From Gammaproteobacteria bacterium HGW-Gammaproteobacteria-15 (GTDB taxonomy: Bacteria > Pseudomonadota > Gammaproteobacteria > Enterobacterales > Alteromonadaceae): a stretch of DNA of 64,000 bases. The stretch lies in contig PGZF01000003.1 in NCBI GenBank assembly GCA_002840125.1, positions 620,001 to 684,000 of the forward strand. Reading direction: 5' to 3'. Made by a program: the position numbers and the translations under genes. This document shows, one piece after another, positions 2,447 through 49,765 of the stretch. Below the pieces are notes generated by a model, which had not been told where the DNA came from, ran no database searches, and saw nothing but the letters and a program-made list of their open reading frames with translations. Within the stretch, counting starts at the first letter, position 1; every line of letters begins with the position of its first letter.

Positions 2447-2851
2447 ATGAAAACAATGAAACAATCAAATGTCGCTATGGCTGTAGGTGCTTTAGTTTTT
2501 GGCTCACTGGCTACGGTAGCTACTACTGCAAATGCCAACCCGTTTACGGCGATGGAGCTGGCGTCCGGCTATGAAATGGTCGCTGCAGAGGGTAAATGCG
2601 GCGAAGGCAAGTGTGGTGAAGATAAAGCTGAAAAAGCCAAGGATAAAACCAAAGCCAAAGAGGGCAAGTGTGGCGAGGGTAAATGCGGCGAAGATAAAAT
2701 GAAGGACAAAGCCGATAAAGCCAAAGAGGGCAAGTGTGGCGAAGGCAAGTGCGGTGCTGATAAAGCCAAAGAGGCAAAAGACAAGGCCAAAAAAGAAGGC
2801 AAGTGTGGTGAGGGGAAATGCGGCGAAGGCAAATGCGGCGGTAGTGTTTAA
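2447..2851 (+). CDS. hvfA: HvfA/bufferin-type RiPP precursor with nine EGKCG motifs
   Basis: The product is a 134-residue exported peptide precursor. Residues 1-30 form a Sec signal peptide ending TTANA. A short linker follows, then nine EGKCG motifs arranged as three doublets and one triplet, separated by Lys/Asp/Ala-rich spacers (KAKDK type). In the HvfA and bufferin families, Cys in EGKCG motifs is converted by an MNIO enzyme and a partner into an oxazolone-thioamide or thiooxazole, giving a copper-binding periplasmic peptide. Here the two maturation genes follow directly. Nine motifs is more than the four I recall for Haemophilus HvfA. I chose the ATG at 2447 because it opens the signal peptide; an upstream GTG-type start at 2417 would spoil it. 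The protein has no Cys outside the motifs. Confidence 0.88.
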   Translation: MKTMKQSNVAMAVGALVFGSLATVATTANANPFTAMELASGYEMVAAEGKCGEGKCGEDKAEKAKDKTKAKEGKCGEGKCGEDKMKDKADKAKEGKCGEGKCGADKAKEAKDKAKKEGKCGEGKCGEGKCGGSV

Positions 2852-2863
2852 TTCAGCTGGTTG

Positions 2864-2915
2864 AGGCCTGCATCGTTGTACTACTTCGTTGTATTGATGT
2901 GCAGGCCTTTGTTTT
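2864..2915 (+). terminator. Attenuator-like hairpin between precursor and maturase genes
   Basis: AGGCCTGCA and TGCAGGCCT are perfect inverted copies around a 27-base loop that can pair further near the stem. The stem is followed by TTTGTTTTA. The hairpin lies between hvfA and hvfB in one operon, so a partial terminator that keeps precursor mRNA in excess over enzyme mRNA is likely. Confidence 0.65.
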
Positions 2916-2930
2916 ACAGGAGCCAGGTAT

Positions 2931-3785
2931 ATGACCACGATGACACAGCTTCCCGTATCTGGGACGGGGCTTGGCCTGCGCCGTGAAATGCTGGATGAAC
3001 TGATCACTGCCAAGCCGGCAGAGATTGATTTTTTTGAGGTGGCACCGGAAAACTGGATCCCGTTTGGTGGCAAGCTGCAAAAGAAGTTTCAGCAGCTAAC
3101 TGAGCAGCATCGTTTTATTTGCCACGGCTTGTCACTGTCGATTGGCAGCTCGGCACCTCTGGACGTGGTATTTGTGAAGCAGGTAAAGCAGTTTTTACGC
3201 CAGCACAATATCAGCTTATACAGTGAACACTTAAGTTACTGCTCCGGCAATGGCCACTTGTACGATTTAATGCCTATTCCCTTTACTGACGAAGCTGTAG
3301 GCTATGTAGCCAGACGGATACGGCAGGTGCAGGATATACTGGAGCAGCCATTAATTCTGGAGAACGTATCTTATTACGCTGCACCCGGCCAACAGATGCC
3401 TGAAGCAGATTTTACCAGGGCGGTATTGCAGGAAGCTGACTGTCAGTTATTGCTGGATGTGAACAATATTTATGTTAATTCAGTTAATCATGGCTACAGC
3501 GCTAGTGAGTTTTTGCGGGCTATGCCGTCTGAACGTATAGCTTATTACCATATAGCTGGCCATTTTAAAGAAGCGGAAGATTTGCTGGTAGATACTCATG
3601 GCGCTGCAGTGATAGACCCCGTTTGGCAATTGCTGCAACAGGCATATCAGTATCATGGTGTTAAACCTACACTGCTGGAGCGTGATTTTAATATTCCGCA
3701 GCTAAGTGTGTTAAGTGAGGAGCTGCAGCAAATTAAAGCGTTACAGCAGCTCGCTTTGGCAGATAATCTGATATTAAGGGCCTGA
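2931..3785 (+). CDS. hvfB: MNIO (DUF692) RiPP maturase, HvfB/BufB family
   Basis: The protein has 284 residues, normal for DUF692 multinuclear non-haem iron oxidases, which fold as a TIM barrel and modify Cys residues of precursor peptides. The expected metal ligands are visible in order: His65 (HGLSLSIG), His100 (SEHLSY), Glu144-Asn145 (LENVSYY), Asp176 and Asn178 (LLLDVNN), His207 and His211 (HIAGH), Asp221 and His223 (VDTHG), and Glu250 (LLERD). AGGAG lies eight bases before the ATG. The gene is 79 bases after hvfA and three bases before hvfC. No signal peptide is present, so the enzyme acts in the cytoplasm before the precursor is exported. The family is secure; the exact Cys chemistry is inferred. 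Confidence 0.9.
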   Translation: MTTMTQLPVSGTGLGLRREMLDELITAKPAEIDFFEVAPENWIPFGGKLQKKFQQLTEQHRFICHGLSLSIGSSAPLDVVFVKQVKQFLRQHNISLYSEHLSYCSGNGHLYDLMPIPFTDEAVGYVARRIRQVQDILEQPLILENVSYYAAPGQQMPEADFTRAVLQEADCQLLLDVNNIYVNSVNHGYSASEFLRAMPSERIAYYHIAGHFKEAEDLLVDTHGAAVIDPVWQLLQQAYQYHGVKPTLLERDFNIPQLSVLSEELQQIKALQQLALADNLILRA

Positions 3786-3788
3786 CAG

Positions 3789-4553
3789 ATGCAGTTTCAG
3801 CAAGTTCAGCAGGCTTTTATCGCCCATATTAAAGATCCTGAGCATCAGAGTGCCCCGGCGGGTATTGAAGATCGGCGCATGGCGATATACCGCGAGCTGT
3901 TTTTTAATAATGTGGAAGGTTTTATCGCCAGTGCATTTCCTGTGCTGAAATCACTATATAAAGACGCTGACTGGCAGGCACTGGTGCGGCAATTCTTTAT
4001 ACAGTATCAGTGCTCCAGCCCTTATTTTCTGCATATTGCTGAACATTTCCTGCATTATTTGCAGCAAGATTACGTTACTACTGAGTATGATCCGGTGTTT
4101 ATGCTTGAACTGGCTCACTATGAATGGACTGAACTTTATCTGGCGACAAAGCAGTTACCGTACGCTGAAACGCCGCTGAGCACTGAGCAAATCACACTGG
4201 CGCCGCTGTATTTGTCATCGCTTGCAATGGTGTTGGCTTATCCTTACAGAGTACATCAAATCAGTACTGCTTATCAGCCCGAGGCGCCAGGCGAAGTGCA
4301 GTATTATCTGTTGTACCGTAATGCTACAGATGAAGTAAAATTTGTGCTTATTAATCAGCTTACTGCGGCTTTACTGCAGACATTGCAGCAATCAGCAGGC
4401 AGTACTCTGGCAGCTTTAGTGCAGCAATTACTGCCGCTCCTGCCACAGTTTAGTGCGCAGCAGTTAATGCAGGGCGCCACAGCTTTATTACAGGACTTTG
4501 CCGCAAAAGGTGTGCTGGTGTCTTTTCAAACACAGCAAAATTCATTACCATAA
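3789..4553 (+). CDS. hvfC: HvfC/BufC-type RiPP maturation partner (DUF2063)
   Basis: The protein has 254 residues. Its N-terminal half (residues 1-95) has the DUF2063 pattern, with RRMAIYRELFFNNVEGFI followed by FPVLKSL. In related operons this protein forms a complex with the MNIO enzyme and presents the precursor leader through an RRE-like C-terminal domain. It starts three bases after the hvfB stop, so the two are translationally coupled. The protein is rich in Gln and Leu and has no membrane segment. No DoxX-type fourth gene follows, although several described operons have one; a very small membrane ORF sits there instead. Confidence 0.88.
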   Translation: MQFQQVQQAFIAHIKDPEHQSAPAGIEDRRMAIYRELFFNNVEGFIASAFPVLKSLYKDADWQALVRQFFIQYQCSSPYFLHIAEHFLHYLQQDYVTTEYDPVFMLELAHYEWTELYLATKQLPYAETPLSTEQITLAPLYLSSLAMVLAYPYRVHQISTAYQPEAPGEVQYYLLYRNATDEVKFVLINQLTAALLQTLQQSAGSTLAALVQQLLPLLPQFSAQQLMQGATALLQDFAAKGVLVSFQTQQNSLP

Positions 4554-4590
4554 CTGCCCTTAAATTCGCTGATTACAGAAGAGTAGTGCA

Positions 4591-4710
4591 ATGGCAGACG
4601 AAAAGTTTAAAGAGTCGTTTAACCTGTGGCAGTTTCTTGCCCTGGTTGCAGTGTTTGTGTCTTTACTGTGTTTGGCACCAATAGTGCGTTGGTTTCAGAT
4701 TCTGGCATAA
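4591..4710 (+). CDS. Small single-pass membrane peptide, 39 aa
   Basis: An ATG at 4591 preceded by AGAAGAG opens a 39-codon frame. The first 12 residues are charged (MADEKFKESFNL), followed by a clear hydrophobic helix (FLALVAVFVSLLCLAPIV) and a short basic tail. It lies 37 bases after hvfC and just before the terminator that closes the operon, so it is probably co-transcribed. I do not recognise a family. Its place corresponds to that of the membrane protein (DoxX-type) found in other bufferin operons, but it is far too short to be one. Conservation has not been checked. Confidence 0.5.
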   Translation: MADEKFKESFNLWQFLALVAVFVSLLCLAPIVRWFQILA

Positions 4711-4729
4711 TGCACCAGCATAGTTGAAG

Positions 4730-4751
4730 GCCGCCTGAGGGCGGCTTTTTT
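4730..4751 (+). terminator. Terminator of the hvf operon
   Basis: A GCCGCC-TGAG-GGCGGC hairpin is followed by six T residues. Confidence 0.92.
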
Positions 4752-4787
4752 GTCCCGGCAGGGGCGCTTAATAAAAGGTTTTCTGAC

Positions 4788-5336
4788 ATGGACAAACAGG
4801 CATTAGAGCTTGAATTAAAACAGGTTATTAAAACAGTTGTTGATTATCCAAAGCCGGGCATAGTATTTCGCGATGTGACCAGCCTGATGCAGGATGGCCC
4901 GAGTTTCAAAAAAGTCATCGACGCTTTCTGTTATTTTTATGCTGATAAGGGCATTACCAAAATTGTTGGTACCGAGTCACGCGGCTTTATTTTCGGTGCG
5001 CCGCTGGCTTATGCCATGGGTATTTCTTTTGTGCCGGTGCGTAAACCAGGTAAGCTGCCACGTCAGCGCATTTCGCAAAGCTACCAGCTGGAATATGGTG
5101 AAGATGCGTTAGAGCTGCATGCTGATGCTATAGCTGCAGGTGATAAAGTGCTATTGGTTGACGATTTGCTGGCTACCGGCGGTACTATTGATGCCACAGC
5201 TAAGTTGGTACGCCAGCTGGGCGGTATAGTGGATGACGCTGCTTTTGTTATTGCACTGCCCGAACTTGGTGGCGTTAAACGCTTGCAGCAAGCCGGATTA
5301 AATATCCTTAGTCTGGTTGAGTATAGTGGCGAATAA
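4788..5336 (+). CDS. apt: Adenine phosphoribosyltransferase
   Basis: The enzyme makes AMP from adenine and PRPP in purine salvage. It has 182 residues, the usual size. Visible motifs are the N-terminal [16 protein letters not shown] segment, the TESRGFIF loop, and the PRPP-binding signature [16 protein letters not shown] near residues 120-136. It lies immediately upstream of dnaX, an arrangement shared with E. coli. The cytoplasmic location fits the absence of a signal peptide. Confidence 0.97.
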
Positions 5337-5384
5337 GTTTAGTCTGTCAAAGATCCCAATTACCACAAGACATCAGCAACCGTT

Positions 5385-7487
5385 ATGAGTTATCAGGTAT
5401 TAGCACGCAAGTGGCGTCCACAACATTTTGCCCAGTTAGTTGGGCAGGAACATGTTAAAAGCGCCCTGGGTAATGCCCTGAATAATAACCGGTTGCATCA
5501 TGCTTATTTGTTTACCGGCACCCGTGGTGTCGGTAAAACCACCATAGCGCGCATTTTCGCTAAAAGCTTAAATTGCGAGCAGGGTATTACTGCTACGCCC
5601 TGTGGCCAGTGCTCGGCCTGCCTGGAAATCGACGCCGGCAACTTTGTTGATTTGCTGGAAATAGATGCCGCATCGCGTACCAAAGTAGAAGATACCCGCG
5701 ATCTGCTCGACAATGTGCAATATGCTCCCAGCCGTGGCCGCTTTAAAGTCTATCTGATCGATGAAGTGCATATGCTGTCAAAGCATAGCTTTAATGCACT
5801 GCTAAAAACGCTGGAAGAGCCGCCTCCGCATGTTAAATTCCTGCTGGCCACCACTGATCCGCAAAAATTGCCGGTTACTGTTTTATCGCGTTGTCTGCAG
5901 TTTAATTTACTGGCATTAAGCCCGTTGCAAATTGAGCAGCATCTGGCGTTTGTGCTGGGTGAAGAACAGATCCCCTTTGAGCAAAGCGCGTTAACATTGC
6001 TGGCACGGGCCGCCAAAGGTAGCCTGCGTGATTCGTTAAGCCTTACTGATCAGGCTATTGCGCAAAGTAATGCCAATATAACCCTTGCTACTGTGCGTAC
6101 TATGCTGGGGTTTCTGGATCAAAGCTGGGCGCAGCAGTTATTGCAGGCAATTCTGGCGCAGGATGCTGCGCAGTTGCAAATTCAATTGGCCGCCCTGGTG
6201 CAACAGCAGAGTAACTTCAGCCAGGTGTTGGACGATATGCTGTCTATATTACATCTTACAGCGTTAAGTCAGTTCAGCCGCACTGCTGCCAGCTTTTCGC
6301 CACAGCAAGCATTTGTACAACAACTGGCTGACACCTTAGCGCCTGCACAGATTCAGCTTTATTATCAGTTACTTATTAGCGGTAAAAAAGAGCTGCCTTA
6401 TGCGCCAGATGCGTTAACCGGGCTGGAAATGGCGCTATTGCGTGCTATGGCATTTGTACCAGAGACGCAAAGCAAAGGCGTAGCACCTGCGAAAACCGCT
6501 ACGATAATGCCAGTTGCCGCACCGGCAGAACCAACGCAGAAAATTGAGCCGCAGCCTGTGGCTGAAGTAGTAAAAGACACGGGCAGCTATTCGGCTACAC
6601 CATCAGAAGCACTTACAGAAGCGATAACACCAACAGAAGCGGTAACACCGTCAGCACCAAATACAGTTGCTGGTATAGCAGGTATTGATCCTGTTACCGC
6701 TCGTATTATGGCGCGCCGCGGCGTAGCGGTAACTGCAGCGCCTGAAACAAAAAAGTCTGAGCGCCAGCAGGCGCCATTGCAACCAGCGTCTGATGCCAAG
6801 GTTGAGGTAAAAACCGCAGCAGTTCAGCAGCCGGAGCCTGTAAAAGCTGCCACGCCGACAATATCTCCTCTGCCAGAATTGCACACCGCAGCGGCTGTTA
6901 CCCCGACAGCTTCGTCGCCGACGGGTAATGACAACTATGACGAGCCTGATGACGCTGATATACGTCACTATGATGCGGCAGCAACAGACGCATTGTGGCA
7001 ACAGTACGAGCAGGATGCGCAGCAACAGCACGATGTTACTGTAGCGCCACCGGCACTGGAGAATTTTGATGGCAGTATTAATGAGCAGAATTTCTCGGTT
7101 CGTTTTGCCGCTCAGGTAGATGCCTGGGCCGCACGGGTTGAAACGCTGGATACCGGTGGCTTAAGCCGGCTGTTTTTACTCAATGCTGCTATGCAGTTGG
7201 CTGGCAATAAGCTTATGTTAACGGTGGCGCAAAGCCAGCAACATCTGGATAGCCCGGGTTTTCGTACTAAGCTGCAACAGGTTTTGCAGCAAAGTTTTAA
7301 TCAGCCGCTGAGCATTGAAATTACTTATCAGAGTGAAGTGGCTCAAAGCCCGTTATCGATTCAGCAAAAAATTGTGCAGGAACGCTTTGGTTACGTTAGC
7401 CGCCTGCTGCATGAAGATGACAAGGTACAACAACTGCAACAGCTGTTTGACGCACAGTTGTTACCCGATACTATAGTGGTCAATTAG
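5385..7487 (+). CDS. dnaX: DNA polymerase III subunit tau (and gamma by frameshift)
   Basis: This is the clamp-loader ATPase of 700 residues. The AAA+ module has Walker A GTRGVGKTT near residues 45-53, a four-Cys zinc site (CEQ...CGQCSAC) near residues 64-79, and the Walker B/DExx stretch YLIDEVHML. A Pro/Ala/Thr-rich linker separates this from the C-terminal tau domains that contact DnaB and the polymerase. A slippery heptamer at 6749-6755 should yield a shorter gamma product of about 458 residues. ybaB and recR follow, as in E. coli. Confidence 0.97.
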   Translation: MSYQVLARKWRPQHFAQLVGQEHVKSALGNALNNNRLHHAYLFTGTRGVGKTTIARIFAKSLNCEQGITATPCGQCSACLEIDAGNFVDLLEIDAASRTKVEDTRDLLDNVQYAPSRGRFKVYLIDEVHMLSKHSFNALLKTLEEPPPHVKFLLATTDPQKLPVTVLSRCLQFNLLALSPLQIEQHLAFVLGEEQIPFEQSALTLLARAAKGSLRDSLSLTDQAIAQSNANITLATVRTMLGFLDQSWAQQLLQAILAQDAAQLQIQLAALVQQQSNFSQVLDDMLSILHLTALSQFSRTAASFSPQQAFVQQLADTLAPAQIQLYYQLLISGKKELPYAPDALTGLEMALLRAMAFVPETQSKGVAPAKTATIMPVAAPAEPTQKIEPQPVAEVVKDTGSYSATPSEALTEAITPTEAVTPSAPNTVAGIAGIDPVTARIMARRGVAVTAAPETKKSERQQAPLQPASDAKVEVKTAAVQQPEPVKAATPTISPLPELHTAAAVTPTASSPTGNDNYDEPDDADIRHYDAAATDALWQQYEQDAQQQHDVTVAPPALENFDGSINEQNFSVRFAAQVDAWAARVETLDTGGLSRLFLLNAAMQLAGNKLMLTVAQSQQHLDSPGFRTKLQQVLQQSFNQPLSIEITYQSEVAQSPLSIQQKIVQERFGYVSRLLHEDDKVQQLQQLFDAQLLPDTIVVN
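6749..6774 (+). promoter_or_regulatory. dnaX: Programmed -1 frameshift site for the gamma subunit
   Basis: The heptamer A-AAA-AAG is in the correct phase (codons 456-457 are AAA AAG). After slipping back one base the ribosome reads GTC and then the stop TGA at 6758. Five bases after the heptamer a GCGCC-AGCA-GGCGC hairpin starts. The layout copies that of E. coli dnaX, which uses the same heptamer, a stop two codons on and a hairpin. I did not find a clear upstream Shine-Dalgarno-like stimulator. Confidence 0.82.
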
Positions 7488-7614
7488 CGGTTTTACCGGT
7501 GCGCCAACCGCGCACAACTTGTAATTCGGCGGCGAAGTTATTATCTTGTCGCCGGTAAAGGTCAGTGTCCGATACACTGCTAACTCAATTCAATTTTACA
7601 ACAGGTACTACATT

Positions 7615-7941
7615 ATGTTTAAAGGCGGTATGGGCAACATCATGAAGCAGGCGCAAGCCATGCAGGAAAAAATGCAGAAAATGCAGGCTGAAGTTGCAGC
7701 AATGGAAGTAACCGGTGAAGCCGGTGCCGGTCTGGTTAAAGTAACCATGCTGGGCAACCATAATGTGCGCCGTGTCAGTATTGACGACAGCCTGATGCAG
7801 GATGACAAAGACATGCTGGAAGACTTAATTGCCGCTGCAATTAACGATGCCGTGCGTCGCGTTGAAGAAACCAGCAAAGAAAAAATGGCTTCAGTTACCG
7901 GTGGCCTGCAGTTGCCGCCTGGTATGAAAATGCCATTCTGA
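7615..7941 (+). CDS. ybaB: Nucleoid-associated protein YbaB/EbfC
   Basis: The product is a small DNA-binding dimer of 108 residues. The [20 protein letters not shown] start and a long N-terminal helix rich in Met and Gln are typical, as is the C-terminal [12 protein letters not shown] chose the ATG at 7615, which opens the conserved MFKGG sequence; an earlier in-frame start at 7546 would add an unrelated tail. The stop codon overlaps the recR start (TGATG), indicating coupling. Confidence 0.95.
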
Positions 7942-33749: not shown

Positions 33750-33826
33750 GGAGCGGTAGTTCAGTCGGTTAGAATACCGGCCTGTCACGCCGGGGGTCGC
33801 GGGTTCGAGTCCCGTCCGCTCCGCCA
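33750..33826 (+). tRNA. tRNA-Asp (GTC), copy 1
   Basis: The 77-base gene folds into a full cloverleaf. Acceptor stem GGAGCGG pairs with CCGCTCC, the anticodon loop carries GTC (CCTGTCACG), the T arm has GGGTTCGAGTCCC, and CCA is encoded. Confidence 0.97.
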
Positions 33827-33846
33827 ATTTATGTAAAGCTTACGTC

Positions 33847-33923
33847 GGAGCGGTAGTTCAGTCGGTTAGAATACCGGCCTGTCACGCCGGGGGTCGCGGG
33901 TTCGAGTCCCGTCCGCTCCGCCA
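33847..33923 (+). tRNA. tRNA-Asp (GTC), copy 2
   Basis: It is identical in sequence to copy 1, including encoded CCA. The 20-base spacer to copy 1 suggests a single processed transcript. Confidence 0.97.
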
Positions 33924-33951
33924 CTACGCCTTACACTGCTTGTCTGATTTC

Positions 33952-34028
33952 GGAGCGGTAGTTCAGTCGGTTAGAATACCGGCCTGTCACGCCGGGGGTC
34001 GCGGGTTCGAGTCCCGTCCGCTCCGCCA
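33952..34028 (+). tRNA. tRNA-Asp (GTC), copy 3
   Basis: It is identical in sequence to copy 1, with encoded CCA and a 28-base spacer from copy 2. Confidence 0.97.
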
Positions 34029-34082
34029 ATTCAGAAAGCCACCGAAAGGTAAAAGCCAAAGAGCGTAAGCTCACTCCAGCGC

Positions 34083-34159
34083 GGAGCGGTAGTTCAGTCG
34101 GTTAGAATACCGGCCTGTCACGCCGGGGGTCGCGGGTTCGAGTCCCGTCCGCTCCGCCA
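34083..34159 (+). tRNA. tRNA-Asp (GTC), copy 4
   Basis: It is identical in sequence to copy 1, with encoded CCA. It is the last intact copy; degraded copies follow. Confidence 0.97.
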
Positions 34160-41138: not shown

Positions 41139-41771
41139 TTAGCCGGCTAAGCCCTGCATAAACCGTTCTGCATAGCTATCTAGCGGCTGCGTGCTTTGCT
41201 CCAGCCGTGAACGGCTTACTGCGCCTTCCCAGCCAATCCAGAAAAACTCGGCTAACGCGTCGCAATCAGCCGCTGGCGCTAATTCACCGGCCAGTTGTGC
41301 TTCGCGCAGGCAAGCAGCAATACGCTGCTGCCAGCTTTTAAAGATTGCTATCAGCACCGGGCGAAAACTTTCTGGTAATACATCAACTTCCTGGCCTAAG
41401 TTGCCAACCAAACAACCGCGTTTAAACTGATGCCGGGCGATGCCATACTTGGCATCTTCGATAAAGTTGCGCATACGCTGTAGCGGGGGAACGCAGCTAT
41501 CCAGCAAGCAGCTATCCAGCTTGCTGGCAAAGTAGTTGGCGTAACTATCAAGCACGGCATGGCCAAAGGCTTCTTTACTTTTAAAGTAAAAATAAAACGA
41601 GCCTTTAGGCACTCCGACGTTTTTCAGAATTTTGTCCAAGCCCGAGGCGGTAAAACCGATTTCGGTTAAATGCTCAAGCCCGCTTCTAATCAGCTCGGCG
41701 CGGATATCCCGCTGTTGTGCAGCTAATTTGGGCGGTCTGCCTCTGCGAGGTGTTGTATGCAATGTTGTCAT
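41139..41771 (-). CDS. TetR family regulator of acuI
   Basis: The protein has 210 residues from the ATG at 41771 (MTTLHTTPRRGRPPKLAAQQ). The basic leader is followed by the helix-turn-helix GFTASGLDKILKNVGVPKGSFYFYFKSKEAFG. The C-terminal ligand domain includes GCLVGNLGQEV, typical of the group that contains AcuR and NemR-like regulators. Two matching palindromes, one at its own promoter and one in front of acuI, suggest that it represses both genes. AcuR in Rhodobacter responds to acrylate; the same ligand is likely but not shown here. Confidence 0.86.
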   Translation of the reverse strand: MTTLHTTPRRGRPPKLAAQQRDIRAELIRSGLEHLTEIGFTASGLDKILKNVGVPKGSFYFYFKSKEAFGHAVLDSYANYFASKLDSCLLDSCVPPLQRMRNFIEDAKYGIARHQFKRGCLVGNLGQEVDVLPESFRPVLIAIFKSWQQRIAACLREAQLAGELAPAADCDALAEFFWIGWEGAVSRSRLEQSTQPLDSYAERFMQGLAG

Positions 41772-43154: not shown

Positions 43155-43433
43155 TTGCGGGTAGTTGTTAAACCGGGAAAGGAAGCAAGTACAGCGGCAG
43201 CTATCAATAGTCTGTCCGCGCTTGCGCGGGAGGAAGTAACAGACGTCATTGATATTCTTGTTAATGCGATATCACTGCAGGAAGCCAAAGAGGTCTTGCT
43301 GGGCAATATGGTGATAGAGGGCAACAGGTTCAGTGTGTCGATAAAGGAAAATTTTCAGTTTGTGGTAGCGGGTTTGCTGGGTGAAAGCGAGGGTGAAGAC
43401 ATGCTGATGATAGAAGTTATTCGCTATGGCTAA
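43155..43433 (+). CDS. Unknown 92-aa protein upstream of a HigA-like gene
   Basis: I do not recognise a family. A TTG start follows a near-perfect Shine-Dalgarno (AAGGAGGTG, four bases away). The protein has a helical first half (SLSALAREEVTDVIDILV) and a C-terminal part that reads like a beta hairpin (RFSVSIKENFQFVVAGLL, DMLMIEVIRYG). It lies 66 bases before a HigA-like antitoxin gene, the place where a toxin gene usually sits, but I see no RelE/HigB signature. A new or diverged toxin is possible; equally it may be an unrelated small gene. Confidence 0.5.
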   Translation: MRVVVKPGKEASTAAAINSLSALAREEVTDVIDILVNAISLQEAKEVLLGNMVIEGNRFSVSIKENFQFVVAGLLGESEGEDMLMIEVIRYG

Positions 43434-43499
43434 GCTATGTCTGCATAAGGTTCGCCGTGTAATTTCAACGCGCGATTCAACGTTAAGGTAATAGATGAA

Positions 43500-43814
43500 A
43501 TGACAAACAATACGGAATTGCTAAGCAGTGAAAACCTGCGCGAGATGGGCCTGATTGGCCCGCCAAAAGCCGCCGGCGCACATTTTAAACGCTATCTGCA
43601 GCGTAAAAACCTGACAGCAGCCGATGCAGCCCGTGATCTGAATGTGGCTAAATCTACCATTACCCGTTTTATCAACGGCGAAAGTGAGTTAAGCATTGAT
43701 CTGGCAACCAAGATAAAGCGGGTTTATAACGCGCCGGTAGAGGTGTTTTTTAAAATTGATGCCCAGTACAAAGCCTATGTTGTGGCGCAGAATATCGCCA
43801 AATCAGTGGCGTAA
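43500..43814 (+). CDS. HigA-like antitoxin / XRE-type HTH regulator
   Basis: The protein has 104 residues. The helix-turn-helix spans residues 38-75 (LTAADAARDLNVAKSTITRFINGE, LSIDLATKIKRVY). The layout fits HigA-type antitoxins, in which the DNA-binding domain follows a short N-terminal tail. No HigB gene is recognisable beside it. The next antitoxin-like gene lies about 40 bases downstream. Confidence 0.75.
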   Translation: MTNNTELLSSENLREMGLIGPPKAAGAHFKRYLQRKNLTAADAARDLNVAKSTITRFINGESELSIDLATKIKRVYNAPVEVFFKIDAQYKAYVVAQNIAKSVA

Positions 43815-43852
43815 GCTGCTGTAGTCAAACGATATGGGCAGAGGTGTAGGTT

Positions 43853-44151
43853 ATGGCTATTAAAACCACGCATTGGGACAGGCAGAGCATTTAAAAACTG
43901 ATGAAGATATTCAGCTATATCTTGAAGCCTGCATTGAAGAAGCGGGTGATGATCCGGCGTTTATTGTGCATGCGTTAGAGGTAATTGCCAAAGCAAAAAA
44001 CATGAGCCAGCTAGCACGCGATACCGGCATCAGCCGCGAAGGCTTGTATAAAGCCTTTTCACCGGACGGTAACCCAACTTTTGCCACTGTCGCCAAAGTA
44101 GCCAAAGCACTGGGGCTGCAGATTACGGTGCAAACTATTAATCAAGCTTAA
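43853..44151 (+). pseudogene. HI1420-type addiction-module antidote, frameshifted near the N-terminus
   Basis: The C-terminal 90 residues, in frame from 43876, are a clear HI1420-family antidote: AEHLKTDEDIQLYLEACIEE, a helix-turn-helix at MSQLARDTGISREGLYKAF and a GNPTFATVAKVAKALGL end. The expected N-terminus (MAIKTTHWD) is encoded at 43853 in another frame, behind a good ribosome binding site. The frames would join if one base were added after GACAG at about 43883. No HI1419-type toxin gene is present. A TTG start at 43873 could still make a nearly complete protein, so the break may be tolerated, or it may be a sequencing error. Confidence 0.7.
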
Positions 44152-44284
44152 GCTGGTTATGTTTACCTGGACAGCCGGGGATCAATATCAGCAAAAGGCT
44201 TTGCCGATTTAAATAATTCACGGTGTTAAAGTTTCAGGTAAAAGTGATAGATTTCTCGGGGTTTGTCTGACAATGTAAAGTTTA

Positions 44285-44474
44285 GGCTGGAAAAAAGAAA
44301 GAGCTGCCCTCGAAATATTCAGATAAGGTGTAGCAGAGTCTCAACATCAGGTGTGTGAGTACTAGACTCTCGATTAAACCCTCATATATCCTTGCGAGAT
44401 ATTGTTTTGATCTAACGAAAACGCAATATTATGCTTGAGTAATATTGACTCTACTACTACTGCATAATAGTAGC
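44285..44474 (-). ncRNA. Candidate DRT3-type ncRNA with a CACACAC template loop
   Basis: Directly after the drt3b-like stop codon the minus strand can fold into four successive hairpins. These are CTACTA/TAGTAG (44473-44454), CAATATTA/TAATATTG (44447-44424, perfect eight bp, eight-base loop), ATATC/GATAT (near 44404-44388) and AGAGTCT/AGACTCT (44370-44335, perfect seven bp). The 22-base loop of the last contains CACACAC (44357-44351). A U-rich run (TTTCTTTTTT, 44300-44291) may end the RNA. No ORF fills the region. DRT type 3 systems are reported to need an ncRNA whose ACACAC stretch templates poly(GT); that match is the basis of this call. The ends are estimates. Confidence 0.55.
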
Positions 44475-46547
44475 TTAGTAAACAGGGTTCAACTCTTTTC
44501 TAAGTAGTAGGCTATATAAATCAGCTCCTGACCATTTTACAAACCAATAGGTTTTGGATAGAACGGCATCTAGCCTTTCGTCTTCTGGTTTAGAATTATT
44601 ATCATCGACAAAGCTATTACCATATAGCTTTCTAAAAACAATTTCCTTTAGTCTTCTTGATATGTATGGGCAGGTAGATAAGTCTAATGCCAAGTGTAAA
44701 ATTTCAGATTCTCTAGATAGATCACTCAGAGCTAACTTGTTAATGCATTCCTCCTCGATTTTAATAATAATATCGGAATATATTTCGTTATTCTTACAGT
44801 AATAGAGAATAGAGACTATATCGAAGTAAGACATAGAATGAGATTTGTCGACTAATTTATTTAATAAAGAGCTACTTATCGAGTAATTGTTAGAAAATTC
44901 ATTTGTTGCAAGTAGTATGTTTAGCTTTTCTAAAGTTACGAATCCTTCACGATAACTGTCTTTGTTATCCATTGCTAGATTTCTAACTACGTCATTCATT
45001 AGCATAGTACGAATGAAAGGGGAGTGTTCTGGCATTGAAATTTCTAAAAATCTATCAATCTCAATAATTGATTGCGCAATTTTGTTTGAAGAACTTAGTG
45101 AAGGTTTTACACTGTAAAAGAAAAGCATCAAACTTAATAGTGTCTCAAACAAATCTCTAAGCAACAATTTTCCGTCCTTTATAGCGGTTTTATCCCCATT
45201 TTTCTCTTTGAATTTTAATGAGTTTAAGAATCTTTCATAGCTATAAATTAGGCTACTAACACGTTTGTTGAATACGGATATTAAGTAAGACGATGCTAAG
45301 GAGTAGTCTTGGCTCTCATCCTTGCAAACCTTCTTAACCTTATCAATCATAGAGTTCTTTAATCTATCTTTTCTGAAAATTTTTCTTGGTATTAATATTT
45401 TATTCTTATTTTCATATCTGGATTCGAAGACGTTATCATCAAAATTTTTTAAAATTTCGGCTAAAACAACTACAACTGATGATTTCTCTGTGAGGAGCGG
45501 TCTTGAATACTTCTGTAACTTCTGAGACGATAAATATAAATTATACTTATTTATTGAGTCACTTACAGCATTGTAAACAGCTTGTTGATCCTCAATGGAT
45601 TTCGAGAAGATCATATAGTCATCAACATAACGAATTATTTCATAGTCTACTGCATGCTTAAGGTTGAGCTTTTCTAGTAATAGTCGCTCAATATCTACAT
45701 CAATTTTTTGGAATATTATTTCAGCAAATATCCTGCTGAACTCAGAACCAATGCAAATTCCATTTGTTTCATTATTGTTTGTTCTTTGCATCAGAGTGTC
45801 TATAGTTTGACAAAACTGGTTTGAGCTTTTTACGTGTGATTTTATAAACTCTTTATCTTTTGCTGCCCAGGAAATAGAGTGGGAGTAGATGCTGTCAAAG
45901 CAATTAGATATGTCTAAGAGCCACATATGACTGAATTTTTTTTCTAGCTCAATGAATCTTTCTGAGTTGTATATTTTATATAAGCGCGTCTTTCCCTTGT
46001 AAGTGAAAAATGATGATGCGGATCTTTTGTATAGCTCAGAATCCAGCGTGTCTACGTCTATCGACTTATAGTCTTTGATGTCAATGCTTCTCTTGCTGGT
46101 TTTTAGAGTAAAAGAATTAGCAACTTTAACTGGCGCCCTTATCGAAAATTTACTTTTGCTGCAAAGGTAATTAATTTCACTGCTAAATTGTTTATACAAC
46201 TCCGAAATATTAATTTGAGCGCGTGGGTGAAGCAATGATAATGTCCTAAGGCTGCTTTCATTTTTGATTATTTTGTATTTGAAAGGTGAGGAGGCCATTT
46301 TCTTTTTTTTCATAGATTCGTCAGTTTTTTTTGTGTCGTCTAGTGACGGATCAATGTGGTTTTTAAATATTTCGAAAACGTACCTATCAATAAGTTTATC
46401 TGAGTTTCTTTTTGCTCTGTGAGAGTTTATATATAGACCTTCATTGCTAAATATTAATGGGACATCAGAAGGGGCCGTGTCAGTTAGTAAAGCCCTTAAG
46501 TAATCCTTTTTATCTAACTTTATCTGATATCTTTTTATTATTTCCAT
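44475..46547 (-). CDS. drt3b: Reverse transcriptase, Drt3b-like (UG8 group)
   Basis: The protein has 690 residues. The RT core lies at about residues 95-340: motif A has Asp212 in WLLDISNCFDSI, motif B reads NGICIGSEFSRIFAEII (262-278), and motif C is an intact YVDD at 307-310 (RYVDDYMIFSKS). A long helical C-terminal half (residues 370-690) has no recognisable catalytic motif, as in many 'unknown group' RTs. It overlaps the upstream RT by ten bases. The gene is very AT-rich (about 28-35% GC in sampled lines, against about 53% in gltB), which indicates transfer. The length and pairing fit Drt3b; a group II intron or retron RT is unlikely because no maturase domain or msr/msd neighbour is seen. 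Confidence 0.8.
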   Translation of the reverse strand: MEIIKRYQIKLDKKDYLRALLTDTAPSDVPLIFSNEGLYINSHRAKRNSDKLIDRYVFEIFKNHIDPSLDDTKKTDESMKKKKMASSPFKYKIIKNESSLRTLSLLHPRAQINISELYKQFSSEINYLCSKSKFSIRAPVKVANSFTLKTSKRSIDIKDYKSIDVDTLDSELYKRSASSFFTYKGKTRLYKIYNSERFIELEKKFSHMWLLDISNCFDSIYSHSISWAAKDKEFIKSHVKSSNQFCQTIDTLMQRTNNNETNGICIGSEFSRIFAEIIFQKIDVDIERLLLEKLNLKHAVDYEIIRYVDDYMIFSKSIEDQQAVYNAVSDSINKYNLYLSSQKLQKYSRPLLTEKSSVVVVLAEILKNFDDNVFESRYENKNKILIPRKIFRKDRLKNSMIDKVKKVCKDESQDYSLASSYLISVFNKRVSSLIYSYERFLNSLKFKEKNGDKTAIKDGKLLLRDLFETLLSLMLFFYSVKPSLSSSNKIAQSIIEIDRFLEISMPEHSPFIRTMLMNDVVRNLAMDNKDSYREGFVTLEKLNILLATNEFSNNYSISSSLLNKLVDKSHSMSYFDIVSILYYCKNNEIYSDIIIKIEEECINKLALSDLSRESEILHLALDLSTCPYISRRLKEIVFRKLYGNSFVDDNNSKPEDERLDAVLSKTYWFVKWSGADLYSLLLRKELNPVY

Positions 46548-47815
46548 ATTCTAACTATTTCCTTTAGCTGGTTCGGGCTGAATTTTTTATATACCCTTTC
46601 TCCGAATCCTTTTCTGAATGATGAGTTCAGTAATGATCTTCTATCCTCCATGGTAAGCGATTTGAAATCGTTATTTTTGAATAGTGAATCGTATTTCATT
46701 ACAAAGTTGCTTAGTGTTTCATCAAGTTCAATAAGAGATTCGGATTCTTCGCTTATTAAGTTGTAGTTATAATAAATTCCAGTTGGGATAGAGTGGCCAG
46801 TTGATTTTTGCACTAAGTCCCTATTGGATGTAAGGAATTTAATTCTAGACTTGAGTATTTCGATCTTTCCAGTCTTACCATAGTGAATTAGCGCCTTTGA
46901 GATCTTGGTTTTAATTGATTTTATCTTATTTTTCGCAATATTTATTTTAACCTCTCTAAACATTGCTAGATTTATATTTTTGTTTTTAGTTTTATCTAAT
47001 TTGGTGTCTATTACGTTGAATTCGTATCCAAGATAGTCAAATTTTGCCACAATTGTTCCTGACGGATTTTGTGAGGAAGCGGTTCTTAGCTTTACATCGC
47101 ATATCTGCTTTTTGTTGTAGTTGAAATTTATCCCTTTTGGTAGCATCGCTTCAGCATCTTTATAAAATTTTTTATTGCACTCTAGCCCGTTTGTTATGAT
47201 TATAATGTCATCTACGTATCGAGAATAATATATTATTCTTTCATCTTGAAGTAACTTATCATCAAAATCTTCTAGAACTAATTCCGCTAATGTAGAGGAA
47301 AATTCGATACCTCTAGGTACGAAGTTTTTGAAGTTAGCTAAATATGAAATGACTAAATTTTTTGTGTGAATTGAAATTTCGCTTTTTCTATCTAGAGCTT
47401 CTTTTACTGTGCTTTGTTGTATTGATTCAAAAAATGACTTTATATCTATCTTATATATTCTATATGGAGTTCCTTCCGATAGATGTCCTTTTATTTCTCG
47501 GCATATTATCGCTCTATTGTTCTGCTTTCTGGATAGCGAGCTTCTAATGTTTGACGCGCATCTTCTTAAAACAAGCTTTTCCTCTAATGATGTCGAGAAA
47601 AATGTTGGTTTATTTTTATTCTTATCCTTTTCGCTGATGTAAAATGAAGAGTATTTAATTCCATGTTCGAAATTGTTGTTGGCTATTTCTAGTGCTTTAT
47701 CAACAAGTGAATCTCTATATATATCTGCTGAAAGTTGCTTGTCGTTAAAGAAGTCGTCGGGGCAAATGCATCTCTTAAGTGCGGATGCACTGAAAGCTTG
47801 ATTATGTGGTGGCAT
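46538..47815 (-). CDS. drt3a: Reverse transcriptase, Drt3a-like (UG3 group)
   Basis: The protein has 425 residues from the ATG at 47815, which follows AAGGAAGG; an upstream start at 47878 would add 21 residues without a good ribosome site. RT motifs are complete: Asp124 in YKIDIKSFFESI (motif A), PRGIEFSSTLAELVLEDFD (motif B, 167-185), and YVDD at 200-203 (YSRYVDDIIIITNG), followed by FDYLGYEF (motif D/E region). It is the first gene of a two-RT operon, overlaps the second RT by ten bases, and shares its low GC content. The pair matches DRT type 3, an anti-phage system in which both RTs are needed. The UG3 label is inferred from gene order and size. Confidence 0.8.
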   Translation of the reverse strand: MPPHNQAFSASALKRCICPDDFFNDKQLSADIYRDSLVDKALEIANNNFEHGIKYSSFYISEKDKNKNKPTFFSTSLEEKLVLRRCASNIRSSLSRKQNNRAIICREIKGHLSEGTPYRIYKIDIKSFFESIQQSTVKEALDRKSEISIHTKNLVISYLANFKNFVPRGIEFSSTLAELVLEDFDDKLLQDERIIYYSRYVDDIIIITNGLECNKKFYKDAEAMLPKGINFNYNKKQICDVKLRTASSQNPSGTIVAKFDYLGYEFNVIDTKLDKTKNKNINLAMFREVKINIAKNKIKSIKTKISKALIHYGKTGKIEILKSRIKFLTSNRDLVQKSTGHSIPTGIYYNYNLISEESESLIELDETLSNFVMKYDSLFKNNDFKSLTMEDRRSLLNSSFRKGFGERVYKKFSPNQLKEIVRIWK

Positions 47816-48042
47816 GCCCTTCCTTAAACACTGAGGCTTTAATGATATAAATAAATTAATTGAACTTGAAAAGAACAAGACGAATTTTTAAAGAATACAC
47901 ATGTATATCGCGAAGTCAACAATTGTGTACGACGCTAACATAAGTATTTAGACATTCCCTTACTCAGTCACTCGAGTACGCAGAAACTTGCGTGTTAGTG
48001 CGTGTTAGGGTCAGGTCTTGCCTTTTGACTGACAACTAAGCG

Positions 48043-48339
48043 CTAGGACTCCAGGCTTTTAGCTGTCTTTGCGGGCTTAGCCCGCATATCTAATACTCGC
48101 CACACTACCGCTTCATCGGGCTTTGGCATTTTGTAATAAATTGCATAAGGAAAACGATGTGCCAGCATTCGGTAATAGCCAAAAACCTGCTGGTGAATAC
48201 CGGCGTAAATAACTAAAGAATCAATATCACTAAAGATGGCGTCTAGGAAGTAGTCACCAAGATGCTCTCCTTGCTGTTGATAGAACAAACGGCCATTTTC
48301 CAGATCGTTTATCGCAGCAGTGAGAACCTTAATTTTCAT
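48043..48339 (-). CDS. RelE/ParE family toxin
   Basis: The protein has 98 residues with a ParE-type pattern: VLTAAINDLENGRLFYQQQGEHLGDYF at the N-terminus, then FGYYRMLAHRFPYAIYYK and VVWRVLDMRAKP at the end. The start overlaps the antitoxin stop by four bases (ATGA). Members of this family act on gyrase (ParE) or on ribosome-bound mRNA (RelE); the sequence does not decide which. Confidence 0.87.
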   Translation of the reverse strand: MKIKVLTAAINDLENGRLFYQQQGEHLGDYFLDAIFSDIDSLVIYAGIHQQVFGYYRMLAHRFPYAIYYKMPKPDEAVVWRVLDMRAKPAKTAKSLES

Positions 48340-48557
48340 CGGAATTTATTACGTAAACTGTTTTTCGCCAGCTCCCAGTCGTGCGTTACCTCATCACCTT
48401 CTCTAACCGCATTTTCTGTTTGCTGCAACGCATGCTGATGCCAGGCAGGGGAGGCTAGTTTATCGGCACCTTCGGTAGTGAGTTCTTGCCACAAGGTTTC
48501 CATCACCTGCAGTTTTTCGGCGGTGGAAAGCTGTTTGATTTGTTCTGTGGTAATCAT
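48336..48557 (-). CDS. Addiction-module antitoxin (Unstab_antitox type)
   Basis: The 73-residue protein begins MITTEQIKQLSTAEKLQVMETLWQEL, the pattern of the PF09720 'putative addiction module component' family, which pairs with ParE-type toxins. The toxin gene follows with a four-base overlap. Sequence just upstream of the start (48555-48618) recurs in two degraded copies at 39066 and 42995, so related modules once existed nearby. Confidence 0.87.
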   Translation of the reverse strand: MITTEQIKQLSTAEKLQVMETLWQELTTEGADKLASPAWHQHALQQTENAVREGDEVTHDWELAKNSLRNKFR

Positions 48558-48618
48558 AAAACTGGCCGTATTAAATAACCTGACTGGAGCATAGCAACAG
48601 CGGTTGGATAACTCAAAC
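48555..48618. repeat. Dispersed repeat copy C: antitoxin start and upstream region
   Basis: This is the intact context of the repeat family. It covers the antitoxin start codon and about 60 bases upstream, including AGCAACAGCGGTTGGATAAC. Within it GGTT..AACC half-sites could be part of an autoregulatory operator. Confidence 0.6.
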
Positions 48619-48686
48619 TAGCTGTTTTATATGTCTGCTGTGTGGCATATTCCAGAGTATGGATAACCTGCCAGAGATAGTTAAAA

Positions 48687-49080: not shown

Positions 49081-49299
49081 ATGCGCGATGCATTAAGACA
49101 AAAAATTATTGCTGTTTGTGACAAAAAGATCCTCGCCAAAGGCGAGACAGTCGGCGTGTCGTTTTACGCCTTTTTCGCCAATAAAAACGACGACCCGGTG
49201 CTATTAATGGAAGCAGCAACCTGGTGGATCCAAACCCACCGGCTGGATCATTTTGAAAAAGCGCTGAAGATAAAGCAGTTGGTTACAGCAGGGCTTTAG
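49081..49299 (+). CDS. Small conserved-looking protein, DUF6500-like
   Basis: The protein has 72 residues and reads [17 protein letters not shown] at the start, [20 protein letters not shown] in the middle and [18 protein letters not shown] near the end. I recall this pattern from the DUF6500 family; its function is unknown. The ATG at 49081 is chosen because a degraded copy at 41922 begins at the same codon. It overlaps the convergent rraA-like gene by 17 bases. Confidence 0.6.
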
Positions 49300-49765
49300 C
49301 TGCCACCAACACGCCATTATTGTCGGCATAAACAAACTGGCCGGGGATAAAATCTACTCCGGCAAACGTCACCGTTAAGTTGATATCGCCCAGATCGCGC
49401 TTATCGGTTTTCATCGGGTGAATACCCAGCGCTTGTACACCAAGCGGCGTTTGGCGTATCTCGTCGATATCGCGAATACAGCCGTTGATAATAATACCTT
49501 CCCAACCGTTGGCGGCTGCTTGTTCGGCCAGCATATCGCCCAGTAGCGCATGGCGTTTAGAGCCACCACCGTCTACCACTAACACCTTGCCCTGGCCCGG
49601 TGTGGTTACCAGCTGCTTTACCTTGGAGTTATCTTCAAAGCATTTCACGGTAACAATTTGCCCGCCAAAGGCGGTTTTGCCACCGTAGTTGGTGAAGATA
49701 GGCTCAGCGACGCGAATATAAGCCGCATGGGCGTCGCATAAATCGGGTAGGGTGAATGGCGGCAT
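49283..49765 (-). CDS. rraA: RraA family protein (HMG/CHA aldolase-like)
   Basis: The protein has 160 residues. The pattern [19 protein letters not shown], the pocket residues in [24 protein letters not shown] and the [18 protein letters not shown] end match the RraA group. Members either inhibit RNase E or act as 4-hydroxy-4-methyl-2-oxoglutarate aldolases. The GDxxAxxA...GCxRD metal-binding pattern of the aldolases is present, so both remain possible. Confidence 0.88.

Follow-up and report, generated by a model that had tools for sequence, protein, structure and literature searches.

Do two adjacent reverse transcriptase (RT) genes in the genome of Gammaproteobacteria bacterium HGW-Gammaproteobacteria-15 form a complete anti-phage system of DRT type 3 (DRT3), and would such a system work like that of Escherichia coli? 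The window analyzed here is a stretch of 64,000 nucleotides (nt) of this genome (contig PGZF01000003.1, positions 620,001 to 684,000), to which all coordinates refer unless otherwise indicated. We consider it very likely that the locus is a complete and probably active DRT3, consisting of Drt3a, Drt3b and a downstream non-coding RNA (ncRNA), which would make poly(GT)/poly(AC) DNA and abort phage infection. The paired intact RTs with their catalytic residues, the conserved ncRNA with its ACACAC and closing stem, residues R272, R101 and Y690 of Drt3b and the chromosomal site were observed in this study, while the mechanism is inferred from the E. coli DRT3.

The RT pair and its family

The two genes are organized as follows:

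46538-47815, minus strand: drt3a (UG3, Class 2 RT), 425 amino acids (aa) from the ATG at 47815, with motif A residue D124 and the YVDD box at residues 200-203
44475-46547, minus strand: drt3b (UG8, Class 1 RT), 690 aa, with the YVDD box at residues 307-310

They overlap by 10 nt, and the drt3a open reading frame (ORF) extends to 46538-47878 with an upstream TTG start, giving 446 aa. Both products matched the Pfam family RVT_1 (E-values of 1.5e-11 for Drt3a and 1.5e-13 for Drt3b), and the Asp of motif A was invariant in the alignments of both proteins (D124 of Drt3a in 21 rows, D212 of Drt3b in 22 rows). The guanine plus cytosine (GC) content of the genes was 32.6 and 32.4%, respectively, vs. 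48.0% for the window, and the only 1-kb windows (step 250) below 36% were those starting between 44251 and 47001. The two overlapping RT genes on one strand, their intact YVDD boxes and motif A Asp and the low-GC block, all reported in a preliminary description made from the sequence, were thus confirmed.

Family placement rests on profile scores. Drt3a reached 337.6 bits with the NCBIfam equivalog NF041747 (cut-off 200) and 388.5 bits (E 1.1e-116) with the PADLOC model PDLC02175, the top non-Drt3a family giving 73.7 bits. Similarly, Drt3b scored 619.6 bits with the equivalog NF041748 (cut-off 350) and 643.5 bits (E 1.1e-193) in PADLOC, with 128.3 bits for the top non-Drt3b family. In the Protein Data Bank (PDB), chain 9z6y_A matched residues 25-446 of the 446-aa Drt3a ORF (E 1.9e-57), and chains 9z6y_H (E 4.9e-103) and, by phmmer, 26cz_A (E 8.3e-69) matched residues 5-690 and 6-690 of Drt3b. 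According to the available portion of PMC8934634, about 97% of UG3 RTs adjoin a UG8 RT, and the UG3-UG8 pair is therefore the expected arrangement.

A different two-RT arrangement, with neighbors of the retron, group II intron or Abi type, would be suggested by some weak matches. The group II intron model TIGR04416, whose cut-off is 300, gave 55.1 and 35.9 bits; the best retron models for Drt3a gave 53.9 bits (PADLOC) and 47.8 bits (NCBIfam, cut-off 235); and AbiP2 and AbiK gave 119.5 and 73.7 bits in PADLOC vs. the 643.5 bits obtained for Drt3b. However, these scores are far under the curated cut-offs, where such exist, and far under those of the Drt3 models, only four tRNAs matched in Rfam at gathering scores, and both the solved DRT3 structures and an ncRNA covariance model gave matches. 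This arrangement is in effect already refuted, and we assign it a negligible probability.

The comparison set comprised the window and 22 other loci (23 in total). These include three loci from genome contigs and locus L005; ten loci over the family cut-off among 394 genomes of the order (11 of the 394 minus the window's own genome); one locus from the class (369 genomes) and one from the phylum (398 genomes), in both cases without the own genome; one of the 47 E. coli genomes that matched among 5426; and five plasmid loci, from all but one of the six records where a single region spans 80% or more of the query (the exception was an E. coli plasmid matched in two pieces). In all 23 loci drt3a was directly upstream of drt3b. 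Hence, neither the loss of pairing in homologs nor the placement with retrons, group II introns or Abi RTs, which had been named beforehand as results that would speak against DRT3, was found.

Identity of the window proteins to these relatives ranged from 26 to 57% for Drt3b and from 23 to 49% for Drt3a. The closest relatives found were those of Catenovulum maritimum (L001) and Psychrosphaera sp. B3R10 (L002), with 57% identity in Drt3b and tree support of 100/100. Within the genus, Drt3b was over the cut-off in 2 of 31 genomes, namely the window's own and that of another species (G007, locus L005). The DRT3 of the latter is very different (Drt3b 28% identical), is located on a contig other than that of the RraA gene, and its downstream AC run is only the 5-nt CACAC. 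No relative was found in the scan of viral contigs, nor any phage record with 80% coverage of Drt3b.

The RNA downstream of drt3b

In the E. coli DRT3, an ncRNA lies downstream of drt3b and the ACACAC in its loop templates Drt3a (PMC13174585, available portion). The preliminary description expected an ncRNA without locating it; its interval starts at 44285, 190 nt beyond the drt3b stop, and so contains by chance the ncRNA that was now found:

44324-44461, minus strand: DRT3 ncRNA of about 138 nt, directly downstream of drt3b, found by covariance model R1
44351-44356, minus strand: ACACAC, the predicted template of Drt3a, within a 17-nt string (44340-44356) identical in the E. coli locus L043
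44440-44457, minus strand: 5' strand (11 + 7 nt) of the closing stem P1, predicted from the fold with the template unpaired and from strand swapping
44330-44349, minus strand: 3' strand (7 + 11 nt, with a 2-nt bulge) of P1, predicted in the same way

The ACACAC 6-mer alone is ordinary, with 22 occurrences in the window vs. 26.1 in shuffles. Nevertheless, an AC-alternating run of at least 6 nt was present within 200 nt downstream of drt3b in 21 of the 23 loci, against 194 of 4554 overlapping 200-nt windows in the background (binomial P 4e-27, kinship ignored), and one of at least 5 nt in all 23 (background 714 of 4554). Additionally, the string ACACACCTGAYGYTGAG occurs in 6 of 50 loci: L004, which is from the window's own genome, L001, L002, L017, L020 and L043.

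Since the ncRNA strands were misplaced when seven downstream regions were aligned with MAFFT, with E. coli and L020 misaligned by eye, base-pair covariation counts were replaced by strand swapping and by a covariance model (R1) of three sequences. Model R1 was built with L001, L002 and L017 only, excluding the window, and was searched against 23 sources. With E below 0.001, it finds the window at 53.7 bits (E 2.5e-11) and, beyond its three members, the E. coli locus L043 (E 4e-4) and L049 (E 9e-4). L020 was unlisted although it has the 17-nt string, and the remaining 16 sources gave nothing under E 0.4.

When the template was forced to remain unpaired, the window RNA folded with an 18-pair closing stem between 44440-44457 and 44330-44349 (-38.0 kcal/mol). 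The own strands of P1 gave -21.3 kcal/mol, in comparison with a mean of -14.5 when strands were exchanged among loci. The own pairing ranked 4 of 45, one of 200 base shuffles reached its stability, and in 21 of the 23 loci the native pairing was better than the mean swap. It must be noted that P1 was without support in L022, L047, L048, L015 and L050 (ranks 19, 26, 17, 7, and 8 of 45, respectively), for which 74-141 of 200 base shuffles of the chosen stretches were as low. Little support was obtained for L044 (rank 11 of 45, 49 of 200 shuffles), L043 (rank 9, 13 of 200), L016 (rank 8 of 45, 10 of 200) and L017 (rank 4 of 45, 28 of 200). Given the wide profile margins of Drt3a and Drt3b, the kept pairing and the ncRNA with its ACACAC, the proposal of a diverged DRT3 was well founded.

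Drt3b as a probable protein template and its gate residue

The residues reported for the E. coli enzyme (EcoDRT3b) in the available portion of PMC13174585 are E22 (dA gate), R241 (dC switch), R71, D182/F187, the YVDD box and the priming Tyr Y666. They were mapped through the 26cz alignment by hand counting, with Y666 at chain position 774, and their counterparts in the window are D28, R272, R101, D212/F217 and, as the last residue of the protein, Y690. The stacking Arg (R101), the templating Arg of the dC gate (R272) and Y690 were invariant in the 22 aligned Drt3b sequences, an alignment that omits L023 because of its split gene.

The AlphaFold2 model of Drt3b (16 sequences; mean predicted local distance difference test 80.3, predicted template modeling score 0.84) is of mixed helix and strand to about residue 390 and nearly all helical beyond. 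In a Foldseek search against the PDB, Class 1 defense RTs were on top (UG15/DRT4, AbiK, DRT6, and Abi-P2 at ranks 1-16, with E-values of 1.5e-14 to 1.8e-10 and template modeling (TM) scores by target of 0.50-0.72). There was no DRT3 entry among the best 50 of 910 matches listed, in a library ending on 2026-04-08, and the fold search therefore demonstrates Class 1 relatives only. Contrary to the early remark that the C-terminal half of Drt3b has no familiar domain, the modeled half corresponds to the helical-repeat domain found in Class 1 defense RTs, which fits the alpha-Rep domain of DRT3b described in the accessible text of PMC13174585.

The mechanism, including its control by RecBCD, has been described for the E. 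coli system (PMC13174585, in the portion available). By analogy, Drt3a would copy the ACACAC of the ncRNA repeatedly into poly(dTdG). Drt3b would prime DNA on its own C-terminal Tyr, Y690, and would alternate dC and dA without a nucleic acid template, its side chains acting as the template, giving poly(dCdA). Both strands would then anneal to a duplex, which RecBCD would clear until a phage inhibitor blocks it, and the build-up of the duplex would lead to abortive infection. RecB, which is required by this E. coli-based model, was over the cut-off in the host genome.

The dA gate deserves separate consideration. This residue is Asp in 7 of the 23 loci (the window, L001, L002, L017, L020, the E. 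coli 504838 locus L043 and the Vibrio plasmid locus L044) and Glu in the other 16. Of the 7 Asp types, 6 have a small residue (S/N/G/T) directly before the gate; of the 16 Glu types, 14 have an aromatic one there. In the tree of Drt3b, made of 22 rows of Drt3b homologs only, six Asp rows group at 97/99 support with L044 outside the group, and the gate label changes twice vs. a shuffled mean of 6.1. The Asp gate may have a single origin, and kinship alone could explain both the pattern of the preceding residue and the clustering.

These data, together with the lowered activity reported for the E22D mutant of EcoDRT3b, could be read as a DRT3 with a changed product, in which Asp28 and the small preceding residue would no longer give strict poly(AC) but, for example, dC-rich DNA. 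However, E22D retains partial poly(dCdA) synthesis, and Asp at the gate is reported in a substantial fraction of DRT3 homologs (both in the available portion of PMC13174585). In each of the seven Asp-type loci the ncRNA region contains an AC run of 6 nt or longer, which argues that the partner strand should stay poly(GT) and the product poly(AC). We regard a changed product as improbable and, because the matching RNA template is unchanged, expect the Asp28 enzyme still to make poly(AC). A more speculative idea, likewise improbable, is that the Asp-gated Drt3b of the seven loci represents a natural re-tuning of the protein template, by Glu to Asp and, in six of them, by the replacement of the preceding aromatic residue with a small one. 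If true, there would be an Asp-gated lineage with its own nucleotide stringency, and the comparison of lineages would reveal how amino acids dictate DNA sequence.

Several results weigh against an active DRT3. The Asp gate itself is one, in view of the partial activity of E22D. Moreover, the fold of the whole ncRNA is ordinary (z -1.16, 30 of 200 shuffles as stable); its unconstrained minimum-energy fold (-38.7 kcal/mol) lacks P1, which forms only when the template is held unpaired; the hairpin immediately 5' of the template has no support in the window, where 174 of 200 shuffles were of equal or greater stability; and neither promoter-like sites (11 vs. 15.1 in shuffles) nor terminators (0 vs. 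1.9) exceeded chance. The locus might also be an inactive remnant, that is, a DRT3 gained by horizontal transfer that has lost its function, and relatives do show decay: drt3a is split into two frames in L001 (4749-6010 of that locus, C. maritimum), as is drt3b in L023 (G333). In the window, by contrast, neither reading frame is interrupted at any point, the residues examined for catalysis and priming are kept (with Asp in place of the gate Glu), and the ncRNA has its template and closing stem. Consequently, a remnant appears very improbable and an active DRT3 remains the preferred reading.

Chromosomal site and known systems

The genes that flank the DRT3, of TetR type (41139-41771) and RraA (49286-49765), are close together on one contig in 5 of 30 sister species. 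One of these, G019 (L054), shares 43428-44135 (94%), 44197-44309 (76%), and 48008-48627 (94% identity) with the window. Between its counterparts of the last two segments lies a PARIS-like pair of 36-37% GC (5562-7842 in locus coordinates), whose genes resemble AriA (E 4.1e-31) and AriB (E 9.8e-10). Since G019 shares both edges and has this pair between them, the following unit was delimited:

44310-48007: apparent exchanged defense cassette, 32.8% GC, with both edges common to G019

Judged from this one relative, the DRT3 cargo probably spans about 44310-48007 and was exchanged as a unit. Other defense genes were found in the interval at two of the five syntenic sister-species loci, the second being L052 (G010), with DUF4297 (E 1.8e-159) and HerA (E 6.9e-282) at 2844-5779 in locus coordinates and with different edges. 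The intervals of L051, L053, and L055 held other genes, and those scanned (two, one, and two, respectively) revealed no clear known defense system: the genes of L051 and L053 had no match and one of the two of L055 gave partial matches only (best capP, E 2.4e-17). The presence of DRT3, PARIS-like and DUF4297-HerA genes in one interval of three congeneric species makes a fair case for defense exchange at one site. No report on this kind of exchange site was found in a literature search under a guessed genus name.

The edge elements (44192-44309 and 48007-48036, the right one including GGGTCAGGTCTTGCC) recur in the syntenic loci, some of them several times within L053. They may be recombination or repetitive extragenic palindromic (REP)-like sites. 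The left element was matched nowhere else in the host genome at E 0.01, and no attC consensus of integrons was seen by eye in the edge repeats, no dedicated attC test being run. Small genes of toxin-antitoxin type flank the cassette on both sides (43500-44151 and 48043-48557), including a helix-turn-helix gene, an HI1420-type antidote and a ParE-like protein, which at 22.5 bits falls slightly short of the Pfam cut-off of 23, together with an addiction-module partner. Elsewhere in the window, four tRNA-Asp genes with identical anticodon are arranged in tandem (33750-34159).

The DRT3 of the window is a good further representative of a known system, with nothing new in kind. It is diverged and apparently intact, each of its three parts has been placed, and its natural Asp gate offers a testbed for the published claims on protein-templated DNA synthesis. 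The gate and the exchange site are the points worth keeping.

Among its closest relatives, L001 and L002 share the Asp gate and a 17-nt template region identical apart from one base, and differ in their hosts and, for L001, in the split drt3a. AbiK and Abi-P2, which are single-protein systems, have a similar fold of RT plus helical repeat, as do DRT4 (UG15) and DRT6, whereas the Drt3b profile scored at least five times the bits of any of these families. DRT4 and DRT6 are likewise single-protein systems (PMC13213688, available portion). The Drt3a and Drt3b of PDB 9Z6Y/9Z6Z show near full-length homology to both window proteins and keep the Arg gate, but have a Glu gate (PYETP) where the window has Asp (PSDVP). 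They are probably the 6:6:6 complex of Deng et al. (2026), as cited in the available portions of PMC13314766 and PMC13213688, and the Glu26/Arg253 named in the latter are E26/R253 of the 9z6y_H row, in the same columns as E22/R241 of EcoDRT3b. Finally, the E. coli DRT3 (Wang et al., 2026, PMC13174585, as far as available; PDB 26CZ) has the same drt3a-drt3b-ncRNA order, the ACACAC template, the counterparts of R241, R71, D182, F187, YVDD, and Y666 and the architecture of RT plus alpha-Rep, while it differs in Glu22 instead of Asp28 and is only distantly related in sequence (26cz_A, E 8.3e-69).

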